Assembly (NCBI RefSeq): GCF_003003255.1 | Contig: NZ_PVTD01000006.1 | Span: 186,001-250,000 of the forward strand | DNA from: Aliiruegeria haliotis | GTDB lineage: Bacteria; Pseudomonadota; Alphaproteobacteria; Rhodobacterales; Rhodobacteraceae | Reading direction: 5' to 3' | DNA: 64,000 bases | Shown: in pieces, positions 51,997-57,293 of the stretch | Layout: every line of letters begins with the position of its first letter | Position numbering within the stretch: the stretch's first letter is position 1 | Notes under the pieces: generated by a model | What the model saw: only the letters and a program-made list of their open reading frames with translations | Told to the model about the DNA's origin: nothing | The model's database searches: none | Program-made: the position numbers and the translations under genes

Positions 51997-53048
51997 TGTT
52001 GCTGAGCGATTTCGACTTCGACCTTCCCGAGGAGCTGATCGCCACCCGGCCCGCAAACCCGCGCACTCATGCGCGTTTTCTGGTGGCTCTGGGCGCGGCG
52101 ACCGAGGACGCGCAGGTCCTTGATCTGCCACGCTATCTGCGGCCCGGCGACCGGCTGGTGCTGAACAACACCAAGGTCATTCCCGCACGGTTGTCCGGGC
52201 TGCGCCGGCGGCAAGGCGAGCAGGGGCCTACCGAGGCGAGGATCGAGGTCACGCTGCTCGAACCGCAGGGCGATGGCAGCTGGCAGGCTCTGGTCAAACC
52301 GGCGAAGAAGGTGCGCGACGGCGAGGGAATCCACTTCGCGCCCGGCTTCTCGGCGACAGTGACCGGGCGTTCGGAGGGCCAACTCAACCTGTCCTTTTCA
52401 CTCGACGGCGAGGATTTCGACGCGGCACTGGAAGCCGCAGGCGTCATGCCCCTTCCGCCCTATATCGCGGCCCGCCGGGCGGCGGATGCGCAGGACCGGA
52501 CCGACTACCAGACGGTATTTGCGCGCCACTCCGGCGCCGTCGCGGCCCCGACCGCCAGTCTGCATTTCGACGAGGCGCTGCTGCGCGAGATCGCGTCGAT
52601 GGGCGTGGATTTCACCGAGGTCACATTGCACGTCGGCGCCGGCACTTTTCTCCCGGTTAAGGTCGACGATGTTTCCAGGCACCGCATGCATTCGGAGTGG
52701 GGGGAGGTGACGGAGGCCGCGGCCGAGGACATCAACGCCACCCGGGCGGCCGGCGGCCGGATCATCCCGGTCGGCACCACGGCCTGCCGGCTGATCGAGA
52801 GCGCGGCGGCGGGCGATGGCATCGTACCGTGGCAGGGAGAGACGGATATCTTCATCCGCCCGGGCTACAGGTTTCGGATCGCCGATGGGTTGATGACGAA
52901 TTTCCACCTGCCGAAGTCTACGCTCATGATGCTGGTGTCGGCGCTGATGGGGCGGGAACGGATGATGCAGATCTACGACCACGCGATCGCAGAGCGGTAT
53001 CGGTTTTTCTCCTACGGGGATGCCTCTTTGTTGCTGCCAAAGGTCTGA
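51996..53048 (+). CDS. queA: S-adenosylmethionine:tRNA ribosyltransferase-isomerase
   Basis: 350 residues. QueA adds the cyclopentenyl ring in queuosine synthesis, using SAM as ribosyl donor. Typical motifs: [14 protein letters not shown] near the start, [11 protein letters not shown] near 50, P-P-Y-I about 145, P-T-A-S-L-H-F about 182, and F-I-R-P-G-Y-R-F...[12 protein letters not shown] near 290-315. The start overlaps the AsmA-like stop (TGATG). Confidence 0.97.
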
Positions 53049-53187
53049 GGAAGCGCGGATCACGTCACCATCGGATGGCCTCGGGACTGGCTAGGCGCTT
53101 GCCAGACCCGTTGCGGTTGGAACGCGACGCTTCCAACGTACGGGGAGCCTCAGGCGGCCCGGCTCGGTGCGTCACGCGGCTCAGCGG

Positions 53188-53586
53188 CTATTTGCACTTG
53201 GACAGGTTCACCGACTGCCCCTTGCTGTTGAGGCAGGTCCTGCCGTCGGCAGACAGCCGCAAGTTGCCGTGTTTCCCCTTGATGGTGGTCCCCTCGACAC
53301 CATCCTTGCCGATGTTCACATTGGCATTGCCGCCCTTGACGGTTGCGCCCTTGACGCCGTCCTTGCCGACCTTGACGTTGGCGTTCTTGCCCTTGACCGA
53401 CGCTCCTTTCACGCCCTTCTTGCCAACGTCGACATTGGCGTGGTTTCCCTTGATCGTTGCGCCCTTGATGCCGTGTTTGCCGACTTTGACGTTGATATTG
53501 TTGCCCTTGAGTTTCACATCCGCGGAGGCCGGCAGCGCGGCGAAGTGAAGGGCCGTCAGTATCAGGGCGACAGAATGCAACCGCAT
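53188..53586 (-). CDS. Small secreted protein of tandem 19-residue repeats
   Basis: 132 residues. A signal peptide (residues 1-22, ending A-S-A) leads to D-V-K-L-K, then four full repeats of 19 residues (28-46, 47-65, 66-84, 85-103) and a diverging fifth. The pattern is G-x-x-x-N-V-x-[VI]-G-K-x-G-[VI]-[KE]-G-[AT]-[ST]-[VI]-K, and the DNA repeats in 57-bp units (53278-53505). The tail holds two cysteines (R-T-C-L...L-S-K-C-K) that could form a disulfide. The protein is very lysine-rich. I recognise no family; the regular Val/Gly alternation suggests a beta-solenoid. ATG 53586 has GGAG six bases upstream and begins exactly at the signal peptide. Confidence 0.85.
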   Translation of the reverse strand: MRLHSVALILTALHFAALPASADVKLKGNNINVKVGKHGIKGATIKGNHANVDVGKKGVKGASVKGKNANVKVGKDGVKGATVKGGNANVNIGKDGVEGTTIKGKHGNLRLSADGRTCLNSKGQSVNLSKCK

Positions 53587-53735
53587 GAGAAACTCCAGCA
53601 TGAAAGGACCTGCTCCCATAGTACACATCCGTTGGCTGTGGCGCACGCGTTTTGGTCAGCCGGTGGTATCGCCGGGATGCGCCCAACCGGCCGGTATCGA
53701 CCGGTAGGACGATCACCTTTGCCCTGCGGCAAGGC

Positions 53736-54263
53736 TCATACCCATCCGTCCGGCAATGCGCCGGTCTCCGGCAGGTCGAGCTGGAAACGCGTTCCGCCAA
53801 CCGGCGCATCGCGAAACCCCAGCGAACGATAGACCGCCTGCGCGGTTTCGTTCTCAGGGTGCGTGCCTACGGTCAGGCGCGTGCAACGTTGACGGCGCGC
53901 TTCCTCCACAGATGCGGCAATCAGCTGGCGGCCGACCCCGTGACCCCGGTGCAGGTCTTCCACAAAGAGGTGCGCGAGGTCCATGACCCGCCGCCCGAAA
54001 TGCAGATGCGTGATCAGGTTGAGCGCTGCATAGCCCAGCAGGGATCCGCCGCAATGCGCGACAAGTGCGGTGGTGCAGGCGCTCGCATCGAAGATGTCGC
54101 GATCGAGTGTTGCGGGTGTGACGGTGGCCGCGTCGCCATGATGGCCCGCAAGCGAAGTGATCATGGCGATCAGGCGTGAAGCGTCACCGCGTTTCGCCTG
54201 GCGGATGGTCACCGGACCTGCGGGTTTCCGGCTGCCGGGAATGTCGATCTTGCTGTGGTTCAT
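53736..54263 (-). CDS. GNAT family N-acetyltransferase under an attenuator-like leader
   Basis: 175 residues, one GNAT domain. Motif A is visible as L-A-H-L-F-V-E-D-L-H-R-G-H-G-V-G-R-Q-L-I near 100-119. The C-terminal E-N-E-T-A-Q-A-V-Y-R-S-L-G-F-R is motif B. The layout recalls polyamine or amino-acid acetyltransferases; the substrate is unknown. ATG 54263 is fixed by AGGAG (minus strand, just upstream). The 142 bases before it hold a small aromatic-rich leader frame and a terminator, so expression probably depends on how fast the leader is translated. Confidence 0.88.
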   Translation of the reverse strand: MNHSKIDIPGSRKPAGPVTIRQAKRGDASRLIAMITSLAGHHGDAATVTPATLDRDIFDASACTTALVAHCGGSLLGYAALNLITHLHFGRRVMDLAHLFVEDLHRGHGVGRQLIAASVEEARRQRCTRLTVGTHPENETAQAVYRSLGFRDAPVGGTRFQLDLPETGALPDGWV

Positions 54264-54305
54264 GTCGGTCTCCTTGGGGCGAACCGCCACGGGAAACCGG
54301 AAATG

Positions 54306-54327
54306 AAAAAGGCCGCCCGGGGCGGCC
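54306..54327 (-). terminator. Attenuator terminator in the GNAT leader
   Basis: Minus strand: perfect 7-bp stem GGCCGCC (54327-54321) / GGCGGCC (54317-54311), 3-base loop, then TTTTT (54310-54306). It lies between the leader stop codon and the GNAT start, and no other minus-strand gene precedes it. It is therefore a leader terminator rather than the end of another transcript. Its first arm can instead pair with 54355-54350 (GCGGCC). Confidence 0.85.
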
Positions 54328-54357
54328 ATTCAGACAATATCCTCCGTTCGGCCGCGA

Positions 54358-54405
54358 CTAGTAGAAGCGAGCCCAATAAAATCGGGAGGCGGCGGAACGG
54401 TTCAT
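54358..54405 (-). CDS. Leader peptide with aromatic codon tract
   Basis: 15 codons and TAG: M-N-R-S-A-A-S-R-F-Y-W-A-R-F-Y. Five of the last seven codons are Phe, Tyr or Trp. Just after the stop lies GCGGCCGAACGG (54355-54344). This can pair with CCGTTCCGCCGC within codons 2-6 of the leader (54400-54389, 11 of 12 bases), or its first six bases can pair with the terminator's first arm. Ribosome stalling at the aromatic codons would free the antiterminator, as in trp leaders. No ribosome-binding site is seen, but a promoter-like sequence is placed so that the transcript would begin at the ATG itself. Confidence 0.75.
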   Translation of the reverse strand: MNRSAASRFYWARFY

Positions 54406-54412
54406 GCCCAAT

Positions 54413-54441
54413 GCAATGCGCCGATGGCCACGCCACGTCAA
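54413..54441 (-). promoter_or_regulatory. Promoter-like site for the leader transcript
   Basis: On the minus strand TTGACG (54441-54436), 17-base spacer, CATTGC (54418-54413), then 7 bases to the leader ATG at 54405. The -35 is good and the -10 weak. The spacing predicts a leaderless start, as I recall for the trpL leader of Sinorhizobium. Confidence 0.45.
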
Positions 54442-54531
54442 GCCTCAATTGGTCTATTGGACTGCGGCAGGGGGCATGGCAAAGTCCGGGCGATGGACCC
54501 GGACCGGTGCGGGACGCAGAGGAGTGCCACG

Positions 54532-55827
54532 GTGAGACTGCTGAGCATTGTCGGAGCGATTTTCGTCTTCGTGGTCCTGGCCGTGCTCCTTCTGCGCGAC
54601 CTGCCGCCGCCGACGACCCTGACCTTCGCCGCCGGCAGCCGCGACGGTGGCTACTGGAGCGTCGCGGAACGCTACCGGGAGGAACTCGCGCGTGACGGGA
54701 TCACGCTGGAGATCCTTGAAACCGGTGGCTCGATCGACAACCTTGAACTTCTGGAAGCCCGGAAGGCCGATATCGGGTTGCTTCAAGGGGGGGTTCCCGC
54801 CCGGGTGCCGGGGATCGAGGCGCTGGCCACAGTCTTTGTTGAACCCTACCTGGTTTACGTTCGCACCGACCGCGAGGTGTCCTCCAACCCCGCGCTTTGG
54901 CGTGGCCTGATCATCGCCCGCGGCAACGAGGGCTCGGGAACGCGTACCGCGGCCGATGAGCTGCTCGGAGCGCTCGACCTCATGGATCGCAACACGATGG
55001 CCGATCTCGGCGGTCGGGCGGCGACGGACGCCCTTCTTGCAGGCGACGTCGATGTGGCGATCTACGTGGCCGTTCTGGACGCGGGTTACCTTGAGCCGTT
55101 GCAGGATACCGATGCCGTCCGGTTGCTGACATTCGACCATATCGACGCGATCTCCCTTCGTCTTCCCTACAGCCGGATTGCGGTCGTTCCCTCCGGCGCA
55201 ATGTCGCTCGATCCGGTGAAACCGGCTGAGACCACCCTTCAGGTCGCACTCTGGGCGCGCCTCGCCGCTGTGGAGGATCTGCACCCCGCCGTCGTCGATC
55301 GCCTGGTCCTCGCCGCGCGAAAGATCCACGGAGATGCCGACATATTCTCCCGGCAGGGACTCTTCCCGACGGCTGAGGCCGTGGACATGCCAATCGATGC
55401 CGGAGCGCTGAAACTGCTCGCCGAAGGGCAGAGCAACTTTCACGCCTGGTTGCCCTACTGGATTGCGGCGCAGATCCGGCGTGTGTTGTTGGTGATCGTG
55501 CCGCTGTTCTTCCTCGTCATCCCGATGATCCGGGCGCTGCCCGGGATTTATCGCTGGTCGATGAACCGCCGGATCTGGCGCTACTACACAGAGGTTCGGA
55601 TGGTGGAAATGGACCTGGCGGTGGCGGAGGACGACGAGACGCTGCGCGGGCTCGACGCCAGGCTGATCGAGATCGACAAGCGGTTGGTGGCAATGCGGTT
55701 GCCCCCAGCTTTCCGGGGGGGCGCGTACAACGCGCGGCTTCACGTAGAGATGGTGCGCCGCCGGATCGCCGACCGTTTGGGAGAGAGCGCCGGGCCACGC
55801 AAAGCCATCGCCGGAATGGGCTTGTGA
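54532..55827 (+). CDS. Membrane-anchored TAXI-family solute-binding protein
   Basis: 431 residues. One N-terminal membrane helix (about 3-20) acts as anchor or signal. The body reads as a TAXI/NMT1-like binding domain: F-A-A-G-S-R-D-G-G-Y-W, L-E-T-G-G-S-I-D-N-L-E-L-L-E-A-R-K-A-D-I-G-L-L-Q-G-G near 60-85, and G-N-E-G-S-G-T-R-T-A-A near 126. A second helix (about 318-345, V-L-L-V-I-V-P-L-F-F-L-V-I-P-M) and a cytoplasmic helical tail follow. No TRAP permease genes are nearby, so it may serve a sensory or orphan transport role. GTG 54532 was chosen for GAGGAG 54519-54524; ATG 54493 and 54424 are in frame. Confidence 0.82.
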   Translation: MRLLSIVGAIFVFVVLAVLLLRDLPPPTTLTFAAGSRDGGYWSVAERYREELARDGITLEILETGGSIDNLELLEARKADIGLLQGGVPARVPGIEALATVFVEPYLVYVRTDREVSSNPALWRGLIIARGNEGSGTRTAADELLGALDLMDRNTMADLGGRAATDALLAGDVDVAIYVAVLDAGYLEPLQDTDAVRLLTFDHIDAISLRLPYSRIAVVPSGAMSLDPVKPAETTLQVALWARLAAVEDLHPAVVDRLVLAARKIHGDADIFSRQGLFPTAEAVDMPIDAGALKLLAEGQSNFHAWLPYWIAAQIRRVLLVIVPLFFLVIPMIRALPGIYRWSMNRRIWRYYTEVRMVEMDLAVAEDDETLRGLDARLIEIDKRLVAMRLPPAFRGGAYNARLHVEMVRRRIADRLGESAGPRKAIAGMGL

Positions 55828-55985
55828 TGCGCCACTGAGTGTGGTTGTCGGGCAAGGTCCCCGGGCGATCCCGGTGACGACAGCACCCGGTCCTCCGCAA
55901 GCGACATCGCGACGTCGCTGTGGGGCGCGAATGTCTTTGCCCGGGCGCGCTAGCCTCAACCCCTCAAGCAACAGGAATGCACGAC

Positions 55986-57293
55986 ATGTTTCAGGTTATC
56001 TCGGCCACCTGGGCCCTATTGTTCGGGATGCTGCTGCTGATGGTCGGCAACGGCGTACAGGGCACTTTGCTGGGGATTCGCGGCGGCATCGAGGATTTTT
56101 CGACCTTCGAGATGTCAGTGGTGATGTCGGGCTATTTCCTTGGCTTCCTCGGCGGATCGCGGCTGGCGCCGGAGATGATCCGTCGCGTTGGCCACATCCG
56201 CGTCTTCGCGGCGCTCGGCTCCTTCGTATCCGCGATCCTGATTCTCTATCCCCTCGTGGCACACCCGGTCGCATGGACCGCCGGGCGTGTGTTGATGGGC
56301 TTCTGCCTCTCCGGCGTCTATGTCACCGCCGAAAGCTGGCTGAACAATGCCGTCACCAACGAGCGGCGCGGGCAGGCGCTGTCGCTCTATGTGATGGTGC
56401 AGATGGCTGGCGTTGTCGCCGCACAGGGGTTGCTCTTGGCAGGTGACCCGTCCGGCTTCGTGCTCTTCGTGATCCCGTCGGTCCTCGTGTCGATATCTTT
56501 CGCGCCGATCCTGCTGGCGGTGCAGCCCACACCCGCGTTCGATTCAACCAAACCGATGAGCCTGCGGGCGCTCTGGGATGTCTCGCAACTCGGTTGCGTA
56601 GGTTTCTTCCTGCTCGGTGGTGTGTTTTCCGCGCTGTTCGGCATGGCCTCGGTCTATGGCTCCGAGGCCGGATTGTCGGTGCCCCAGATCTCCGGATTCA
56701 TTGCATCGATCTACCTCGGGGGGATGCTGATGCAGTACCCGATCGGCTGGTTGTCCGACCGCATGGACCGCCGGTTGCTCATCCTCGCATCCGCTATCAT
56801 CGGCGCGGTCGCATCCCTGTTGGCTATGACAATGGCGGACGATTTCCCCACGCTGCTGGCGGCGGCCTTTGTCATCGGGGGCACCTCCAACCCGCTCTAC
56901 GCGCTTCTGCTCGCCTATGTGAACGATCACCTTGACTACGAGGATATGGCCGCCGCTTCCGGCGGGCTGATCTTCATCAACGGCATCGGCGCAATCATGG
57001 GGCCGCTGATCACCGGCTGGATGATGGGAGTGGTCGGAGCGCAGGGCTTCTTCCTGTTCCTTGTCCTGCTTTGCGTGACACTGGCGGCCTATGCCGCCTG
57101 GCGCATGACCCAGAGCGACGCCGTCCCGGTCGATGAAACCGGGAGCTACGCGCCGGTTCTGCCGACTGCATCTCCGGTTGCGGTCGAGGTCGCACAGGAG
57201 GTATTCATCGAAGCTGCACAGGAAGCGGAGGCCGAGGCGGAAGCCGAGGCCCAGGAACAGGACAACGAGAGACAGGCGGAGGACACCGCCTGA
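55986..57293 (+). CDS. MFS transporter (YcaD-like) with acidic C-terminal tail
   Basis: 435 residues, twelve predicted helices. G-N-G-V-Q-G-T-L-L-G-I-R-G near 21-33 and G-S-R-L-A-P-E-M-I-R-R-V-G-H-I-R-V-F in loop 2-3 are close to the YcaD group. G-W-L-S-D-R-M-D-R-R is the second copy of motif A. After the last helix a 55-residue tail ends in Ala/Glu repeats (E-A-E-A-E-A-E-A), probably cytoplasmic and disordered. The substrate is unknown. ATG 55986 fits the family start; ATG 55977 is also possible. Confidence 0.85.
   Translation: MFQVISATWALLFGMLLLMVGNGVQGTLLGIRGGIEDFSTFEMSVVMSGYFLGFLGGSRLAPEMIRRVGHIRVFAALGSFVSAILILYPLVAHPVAWTAGRVLMGFCLSGVYVTAESWLNNAVTNERRGQALSLYVMVQMAGVVAAQGLLLAGDPSGFVLFVIPSVLVSISFAPILLAVQPTPAFDSTKPMSLRALWDVSQLGCVGFFLLGGVFSALFGMASVYGSEAGLSVPQISGFIASIYLGGMLMQYPIGWLSDRMDRRLLILASAIIGAVASLLAMTMADDFPTLLAAAFVIGGTSNPLYALLLAYVNDHLDYEDMAAASGGLIFINGIGAIMGPLITGWMMGVVGAQGFFLFLVLLCVTLAAYAAWRMTQSDAVPVDETGSYAPVLPTASPVAVEVAQEVFIEAAQEAEAEAEAEAQEQDNERQAEDTA

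Follow-up and report, generated by a model that had tools for sequence, protein, structure and literature searches.

On the minus strand of the window (the whole stretch of DNA that was analysed, 64 kb), a gene for a GNAT-family N-acetyltransferase is preceded by a short open reading frame and a terminator-like hairpin (Table 1). The hairpin, GGCCGCC-CCG-GGCGGCC at 54327-54311, has a perfect 7-bp stem followed by TTTTT to 54306, and the GNAT start codon at 54263 lies 43 bases past this T-run, with the Shine-Dalgarno (SD) motif AAGGAG at 54275-54270. When the sequence was read again, the frame of 15 codons, its coordinates, the pairing of segments 1 and 2 at 11 of 12 positions, the perfect terminator and the 43-base gap to the GNAT gene were all as given in a preliminary description of this DNA.

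Table 1. Features of the putative leader region and the GNAT gene; positions are numbered from the first base of the window.
Feature	Position	Strand	Basis
-35-like TTGACG, 36 nt 5' of the leader ATG	54441-54436	(-)	sequence; spacing conserved in relatives
Putative weak -10-like CATTGC, 17-nt spacer from the -35	54418-54413	(-)	sequence; presumed from position
Leader ORF, ATGAACCGTTCC...TTCTACTAG = MNRSAASRFYWARFY*, 15 codons, without Shine-Dalgarno motif, predicted to be leaderless	54405-54358	(-)	sequence
Segment 1, CCGTTCCGCCGC, complementary to segment 2 at 11/12 positions	54400-54389	(-)	sequence; most pairs also folded without a ribosome mask
Proposed sensing codon TAT = Tyr, six before the stop	54376..54378	(-)	Tyr at -6 in 55/61 unique leaders
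Segment 2, GCGGCCGAACGG, antiterminator strand, directly 3' of the leader stop	54355-54344	(-)	sequence and folding
Segment 3, GGCCGCC, first terminator arm	54321..54327	(-)	terminator scan and leader alignment
Segment 4, GGCGGCC (54317-54311), then T-run (54310-54306)	54306..54317	(-)	sequence, terminator scan, alignment
Anti-Shine-Dalgarno strand CGGTTTCC	54292..54299	(-)	local fold -18.0 kcal/mol, z -2.07
GGAGACCG, pairs with 54299-54292, overlaps the GNAT Shine-Dalgarno motif AAGGAG (54275-54270)	54266..54273	(-)	local fold
GNAT-family N-acetyltransferase, 175 aa, ATG at 54263	53736..54263	(-)	Pfam PF00583, E 3.7e-16

Neither a terminator nor the pairing of segments 2 and 3 is rare by itself; what is unusual is the combination of parts and its conservation. 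Both strands of the window were scanned with a blind rule that asks for an ATG frame of 12-22 codons whose stop lies 20-45 nt ahead of any of 34 terminator-like sites. Three frames passed, and the frame at 54405-54358 was the only one with both a Tyr codon six before the stop (position -6) and a TTGA[CT] motif at 34-36 nt. Terminator-like sites occur at background frequency (3 in 3 kb versus 2.7 expected), as would suit a plain terminator with a chance short frame beside it, but this explanation is exceedingly improbable, as no second frame in the window shares these features and a codon-blind rule finds a leader before 67 of 110 relatives of the GNAT gene (see below); in our reading, this conservation refutes it. 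A T box or an otherwise known leader RNA was rejected as well: no Rfam leader family reached its gathering threshold in the window (4227 models of Rfam 15), where the sole match was one tRNA, and no Rfam T-box match was obtained in the window, three further matches at 54200-54500 all being at chance level.

The encoded protein carries a GNAT domain that exceeds the curated Pfam cut-off (PF00583, 59.9 bits against 20.7, E 3.7e-16), and its nearest solved sequences are 2fe7, the thialysine acetyltransferase 12jc and SSAT2 (2bei). Its best NCBIfam match, the arsinothricin-resistance N-acetyltransferase ArsN1 (NF040503), was rejected at 45.7 bits versus a cut-off of 170, and none of the NCBIfam cut-offs shown was reached by the window GNAT. 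An AlphaFold model (three sequences) had a mean pLDDT of 68.4, with generic GNATs as its Foldseek matches. Downstream of the GNAT gene, at 53188-53646 on the minus strand, lies a gene for a 152-aa repeat protein of GVKGATVKGGNANVNIG-like units, for which no Pfam or NCBIfam match was obtained at E <= 0.001.

Relatives of the GNAT were collected from 60 genomes near that of the window, 394 genomes of its family (48 with a relative at E <= 1e-25), 385 genomes of its class (5 at E <= 1e-30) and 199 genomes of the family of a Rhizobium genome (46 at E <= 1e-25), as well as from named genome contigs and plasmids; judging from named relatives, the window's family would be Rhodobacteraceae and that of genome G781 Rhizobiaceae. 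In all, 110 distinct relatives had a domain score of at least 90 bits. A codon-blind rule, which asks for an ATG frame of 12-22 codons with its stop 20-45 nt before a terminator, identified a leader in 67 of the 110 distinct relatives, belonging to two families, and 78 of 110 had one once covariance-model matches were added. The 11 additions were picked by hand from 13 model matches, leaving out L154 (the L077 site again) and L085 (no Tyr), and the 67 leaders were reduced to 61 unique ones by dropping identical nucleotide sequences. The leaders share descent, and counts made on them are not independent. Eight of eight genomes of the same genus have the leader, as does every row (45 of 45) of the Rhizobium-side clade in a quickly built tree of the 110 GNATs. 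Leader presence (78 rows) takes 18 changes on this tree versus 28 with shuffled labels. In Sinorhizobium meliloti strain Ak57, the leader and its GNAT gene are located on pSymB. By these rules, 32 of the 110 relatives lack a leader, of which ten form an outlying, weakly supported group, while core members are found among the rest; six relatives with a Tyr frame in which no terminator was detected (L058, L073, L076, L079, L080 and L082) were counted as leaderless. The conservation across orthologues proposed in the preliminary description therefore holds within the genus, among most of the relatives and throughout the Rhizobium side, but not for the window's own family as a whole, several of whose core members lack the leader; this absence is real and counts against strict necessity. 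Individual sites depart from the usual layout in their own ways: the leader of one (listed as both L067 and L163) lacks an in-frame stop where one usually lies, in L046 the Tyr is at another position and no terminator was found, and the L085 leader has no Tyr.

In 58 of the 61 unique leaders, a TTGA[CT] motif starts 34-36 nt 5' of the leader ATG, compared to 2.3% of shuffled upstream sequences with this motif anywhere 25-45 nt before the ATG. The base directly 5' of the ATG is C in 58 of 61 leaders, and an SD-like motif precedes the ATG in two of 61. The position of this -35-like motif points to a leaderless start, with transcription most likely beginning on the first base of the leader AUG (or beside it); the preserved spacing and scarcity of SD-like motifs uphold the earlier suggestion, drawn from promoter spacing in the window, that the leader peptide is translated from a leaderless RNA. 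A consensus promoter scan of positions 53000-56000 listed no promoter, and the CATTGC at the -10 position of the window is weak. According to passages of PMC7298713 and PMC10117765, the RNA of the Sinorhizobium meliloti trpL attenuator also begins with the leader AUG; here, two families keep a promoter spacing that would have transcription begin at the AUG of a sensing frame.

The amino acid to which the leader would respond was first taken to be Phe, Tyr or Trp alike. Tyr is found in all 61 unique leaders, Phe in 59 and Trp in 49 (missing in 12), and Tyr lies exactly six codons before the stop in 55 of 61, the other six having it at -5 (four leaders), -4 or -7; a short leader ORF with a putative sensing codon at a fixed distance from its stop is what would be expected of a trp-type attenuator. 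Position -6 has the highest information content of ten positions both in the 24 leaders of the window's family (3.06 bits) and in the 37 Rhizobium-side leaders (4.32 bits). The neighbours of this Tyr come in varying order (FYW, WFY, WYF, YFW, YY, YC), and the residues around it change freely (RFYWSR, TWYFST, NYYRRL, PYFTAP, RYCHAF); the varying order argues that a codon is kept rather than a peptide. Codon usage differs from that of the GNAT genes themselves, with TAT accounting for 50 of 55 Tyr codons at -6 (77 of 249 in the genes) and TTT for 43 of 44 Phe codons at -5 (47 of 314 in the genes).

All three aromatic residues occur together in 49 of the 61 unique leaders, and folding gives good antitermination for stalls from -7 to -3 (see below), such that adjacent Phe and Trp codons could act; both observations would fit a general aromatic sensor, in which shortage of Phe, Tyr or Trp switches the GNAT gene on equally. 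However, among the 24 leaders of the window's family, Trp is missing in 11, Phe in two and Tyr in none, position -6 is the most conserved, and the same leader stands before tyrS and genes resembling prephenate dehydrogenase, whereas the versions before trpS and trpE carry Trp codons. A general sensor is therefore unlikely, and the earlier claim is corrected to Tyr, with the neighbouring Phe and Trp codons probably serving as secondary sensors. It has also been considered that a ribosome-targeting antibiotic might stall the ribosome on a drug-sensing arrest peptide and thereby induce a resistance acetyltransferase, given that an Escherichia coli upstream ORF senses several antibiotics (as stated in part of PMC12121999) and that GNATs include drug-modifying enzymes, although the NCBIfam similarities of the window protein are weak and those shown fall far below cut-off. 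Since the residues around Tyr vary freely, it is codon identity that is kept, and the leader is common to tyrosine genes; both points make a drug-sensing peptide very improbable, and sensing of Tyr through its codon is preferred.

The antiterminator (segments 2:3) and the U-tailed terminator (3:4) are predicted to be mutually exclusive, as in trp-type attenuators, with the 2:3 register differing among relatives. Ribosome stalls were simulated on transcripts ending before segment 4, with a ribosome-sized mask placed at each codon. The expected number of 2:3 pairs was 6.27 with codon -6 in the A site and 6.28 with codon -5 (6.2-6.3 from -7 to -5), 5.9 at -4, 5.6 at -3, 4.7-5.3 from -13 to -8, and dropped to 0.35 for a ribosome on the stop codon. 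The conserved Tyr lies in the best stall range, though within a wide profile in which folding favours -7 to -4 without singling out -6. Four expected 2:3 pairs are reached in 57 of the 61 native leaders, compared to 35.6% of 610 trials with shuffled spacers. The 1:2 protector helix (11/12 in the window) pairs better in native leaders than in swapped ones, yet without a ribosome 2:3 still has at least 4 expected pairs in 25 of 61 leaders, which indicates that the protector is weak in many of them. When segments were swapped between species, the joint conservation of 1:2 and 2:3 was higher in the native leaders than in 300 of 300 swaps, although cross-clade swaps also break relatedness. On full transcripts, the terminator is kept in the minimum-energy fold in 55 of 61 leaders even with the ribosome mask at Tyr; the switch would therefore depend on co-transcriptional timing, as trp-type attenuators generally do.

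Support from compensatory changes is confined to particular positions. The leader alignment (A2), from which covariance model R1 was built, contains 36 of the 61 leaders (less than 85% alike); five were cut back to a later in-frame ATG, and the row for the window extends 5 nt further at its end. The terminator column pair 120-138 has A-U in place of G-C in 11 of 36 aligned leaders, and the antiterminator column pair 72-120 is changed on both sides in eight of 36. Most pairs are invariant, and the count of pairs with two-sided changes is not above shuffles for the terminator or the antiterminator helix; of the covarying stems anticipated in relatives, changes that preserve terminator and antiterminator pairing were found at a few positions, but not in a number exceeding chance. 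Pairing of 2:3 at fixed columns (77.8% of cells) is barely above that of shuffles (75.5%) because the GGC-rich strands pair in several registers, and a register slid by +3 is higher, at 80.7%. On the Rhizobium side, a helix between the start codon and the spacer (ATGATCA:TGATCAT) is suggestive only, with a mean longest complement of 4.2 in native leaders versus 3.5 in swaps (maximum 3.97); 19 of 61 leaders have no such complement of at least 4 nt, and TGATCA is a palindrome.

Anatomy, conservation, codon position and pairing geometry all support the original proposal of a trp-type attenuator on the GNAT gene, and the reading favoured here, with a probability of about 0.84, is that of a leaderless, ribosome-mediated, trp-type transcription attenuator with a Tyr sensing codon. 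Transcription would begin on the A of the leader AUG or directly beside it, with immediate loading of a ribosome. With ample Tyr-tRNA, this ribosome would reach the stop codon and cover segment 2, such that the 3:4 terminator forms and a leader RNA of approximately 100 nt is released. With charged tRNA-Tyr in short supply, it would halt with the Tyr codon (-6) in its A site, covering segment 1 and leaving segment 2 just outside, such that 2 pairs with 3 and the polymerase continues into the GNAT gene. The gene would thus very probably be switched on when ribosomes are short of tyrosine-loaded tRNA. We infer the response to Tyr, the transcription start and any link between the enzyme and tyrosine beyond their shared regulation.

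The same leader was also searched for before other genes with R1 (36 leaders), which scores the window site at 53.9 bits and the next site in the same genome at 15.8 bits. Matches were obtained in 40 of 384 genomes of the window's family (E <= 0.001), 67 of 171 of the Rhizobium family and 98 of 372 of the class (E <= 0.01, mostly weak). Having been trained on Tyr leaders, R1 is biased towards TAT TTT; the motif is therefore expected in its matches, whereas the identity of the downstream gene is not. There were at least approximately 270 matches, and the downstream gene was inspected at 85 distinct sites, including all 11 listed sites of at least 40 bits outside the GNAT family. Among the matches listed, 63 distinct ones reached at least 40 bits, and 52 of these stand before this GNAT family, many of them being the R1 training set. 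The other 11 precede genes for tyrosyl-tRNA synthetase (TyrRS; two, in G609 and G936), a prephenate-dehydrogenase-like protein (one, G328), a tryptophanyl-tRNA synthetase (TrpRS) with WW in the leader (one, G581), GNATs of other subfamilies (five), a stand-alone S4 protein (one, G664) and no recognisable gene (one, G853). Weaker matches include prephenate-dehydrogenase-like genes (L241 and L233), an S4-like gene (L218), a distant GNAT (L264) and a further relative of the window GNAT scoring 74 bits (L174), as well as trpS with WW and trpE with WW or WWW (trpE and most trpS named by eye), and many of the inspected sites below 40 bits are plain terminators or stand before unrelated genes. The TyrRS genes, the TrpRS of L207 and two DAHP synthases (L254 and L221) exceed NCBIfam cut-offs. 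The prephenate-dehydrogenase-like proteins fall below theirs, with L241 and L150 exceeding the cut-off of Pfam PDH_N; L211 exceeds the Pfam S4 cut-off and L218 falls below its own; and of the GNATs, L208, L209, L213 and L264 exceed the Pfam cut-off, while L210 and L212 matched only the GNAT profile of this analysis.

Of the Tyr leaders read outside the core set, 16 of 17 (L174 being one of the 17) have Tyr at -6, the exception being L167. This count leaves out the DAHP synthase leaders and L224, where a leader-like stretch with LYY codons precedes a prephenate/arogenate dehydrogenase gene but lacks an in-frame stop at the expected point. The GNAT gene thus appears, from the leaders compared, to join a tyrosine attenuation regulon with different members in different genomes. 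The idea that an acetyltransferase rather than a biosynthetic enzyme is controlled holds in part: in other genomes, the leader type is common to tyrosine charging and biosynthetic genes. Both G609 and G936 have a second TyrRS elsewhere in the genome, and in our reading the leader-bearing TyrRS is the auxiliary copy. The leader without a recognisable gene behind it (L234, G853:C1:2250917-2251024, 72.5 bits, MINTALIAAIYYATSP) is a Tyr leader with a terminator; since G936 has its second TyrRS after a near-identical leader, the gene behind L234 has probably been lost. The small stand-alone proteins L211 and L218, found after the same leader, resemble the C-terminal S4 domain of TyrRS, and it is possible that they act as a TyrRS tail in trans. 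DAHP synthases of both classes (L254 and L221, named by NCBIfam; L265, L283, L222 and L275, named by eye) follow longer aromatic leaders (e.g., MINLTATYWYFSSSLAAGGLRSI) that are built unlike the GNAT leader. At L167 (G107:C9:27112-27209, 34.8 bits), the leader MIKTRATSTTYYRS, with Tyr at -4 and -3, precedes a frame of approximately 130 aa.

Attenuators of this kind that respond to Trp, His, Phe and branched-chain amino acids are textbook examples. A Streptomyces gene for an auxiliary, antibiotic-resistant TrpRS reportedly (Vecchione and Sello, 2010) is under ribosome-mediated transcriptional attenuation; this system offers a likeness in its attenuated auxiliary synthetase, and differs in its use of Trp, its actinomycete host and its synthetase target. 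The trpE(G) attenuator (trpL) of S. meliloti is described in passages of PMC7298713 and PMC10117765 as a 14-codon leaderless leader ORF with Trp codons and a terminator; the terminator and the ORF, predicted to be leaderless in the window, are common to both, but the S. meliloti attenuator senses Trp and controls trpE(G), whereas here the codon is Tyr and the target GNAT. Caulobacter trpS provides an alphaproteobacterial leader coding sequence before an aminoacyl-tRNA synthetase (part of PMC4117421), and both this leader and the WW leaders found here before trpS (L207 confirmed) have Trp codons and trpS as their target, in contrast to the Tyr codon of the GNAT leader. In Bacillus subtilis, a T-box RNA (plus MarR) acts on tyrZ, which encodes a second, L-Tyr-selective TyrRS directed against D-Tyr, according to sections of PMC9437257; the T box has no leader peptide, and the window leader has no Rfam T-box match. 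Searches of the open-access literature found no Tyr-specific ribosome-mediated attenuator and none on a GNAT gene, although an earlier description may exist. The mechanism is of a known kind, and what would be new is the sensed amino acid, the target gene and the hairpin over the GNAT ribosome-binding site described below.

Relatives of this acetyltransferase, itself unstudied, occur in 48 of 394 and 46 of 199 genomes sampled from two families; the leader provides a first physiological handle on it, tyrosine charging, and turns its substrate into a directed question. Because the GNAT is under the same leader type as an auxiliary TyrRS, it can be compared with enzymes that protect charging, among them TyrZ and the Streptomyces TrpRS named above. 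The GNATs MccE and RimL detoxify synthetase poisons by acetylating the alpha-amine of many aminoacyl-adenylates (as reported in part of PMC3817062), but no close sequence kinship to these was shown, the window GNAT being nearest to thialysine and diamine acetyltransferases. Its role would most likely be to protect Tyr charging, with a tyrosine-related amine or a poison directed at TyrRS as the molecule acetylated, a suggestion far less certain than the switch itself. The GNAT was also considered as a stand-in for D-Tyr-tRNA deacylase, which found no support: there was no complementary pattern with the dtd family in 28 chosen genomes, where dtd was found in 14 of 14 with GNAT and leader, in nine of 13 lacking a GNAT match at 1e-25 and in the single one with a leaderless GNAT.

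Between the terminator and the GNAT gene, most leaders have a further feature in common, a predicted hairpin over the GNAT SD. Mean accessibility of this SD, with start codons and SD motifs chosen by a simple scoring scheme, is 0.29 in native sequences versus 0.53 with the rest of the untranslated stretch shuffled; 56 of 61 leaders fall below their control, and the mean fold z is -1.75. In the window copy, the hairpin has a z of -2.07, but SD accessibility is 0.30 versus 0.32 in the control. In the stretch corresponding to 54305-54264 (minus strand), the anti-SD strand of relatives often borders or overlaps a complement of the first terminator arm and loop. This complement is perfect over at least 8 nt in 31 of 61 leaders versus 0.8% of shuffles, with a native mean of 7.5 versus 5.5 in species swaps, and spans 5 perfect nt in the window copy. 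The SD hairpin with its arm-and-loop complement is a real, unexplained feature, which suggests an unrecognised second lock on the GNAT ribosome-binding site, and the covariation of the complement with the terminator loop suggests a toggle. A simple version, in which 2:3 antitermination frees the GNAT SD by way of the terminator loop, was not supported by folding: mean accessibility was 0.318 with 2:3 forced versus 0.275 with 3:4 forced, rising by more than 0.1 in 15 of 61 leaders and falling by more than 0.1 in four.

The frequency of at least 8 nt of arm-and-loop complement to the stretch before the GNAT start (31 of 61) would also fit a released leader RNA (or peptide) that is itself the main product and acts in trans, like rnTrpL and peTrpL of S. 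meliloti, rnTrpL being a leaderless attenuator RNA with trans functions according to passages of PMC7298713 and PMC10117765. Such a role is improbable for this leader, however, given that control in cis accounts for the conserved link to the GNAT gene and for the antiterminator geometry, that the leader is less conserved away from Tyr and that the window copy has only 5 nt of complement. Control in cis by attenuation remains the preferred reading, and a broader hypothesis may tentatively be built on it, doubtful as it is: the alphaproteobacterial Tyr attenuation regulon (GNAT, auxiliary TyrRS, prephenate dehydrogenase, S4 protein and perhaps DAHP synthase) could double as an alarm for tRNA-Tyr poisoning, in which blockers of charging (a TyrRS-directed nucleotide antibiotic, D-Tyr or a Tyr analogue) would induce an inactivating acetyltransferase or a resistant synthetase, with the SD hairpin, its anti-SD strand bordering or overlapping the arm-and-loop complement, as a second lock coupling control of transcription and translation. 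In 14 leaders of other genes the arm-and-loop complement was not outstanding, only L206 (0.020) being as rare as 2% of shuffles. Hairpins similar to that over the GNAT SD were seen, by eye, in folds before several other target genes.
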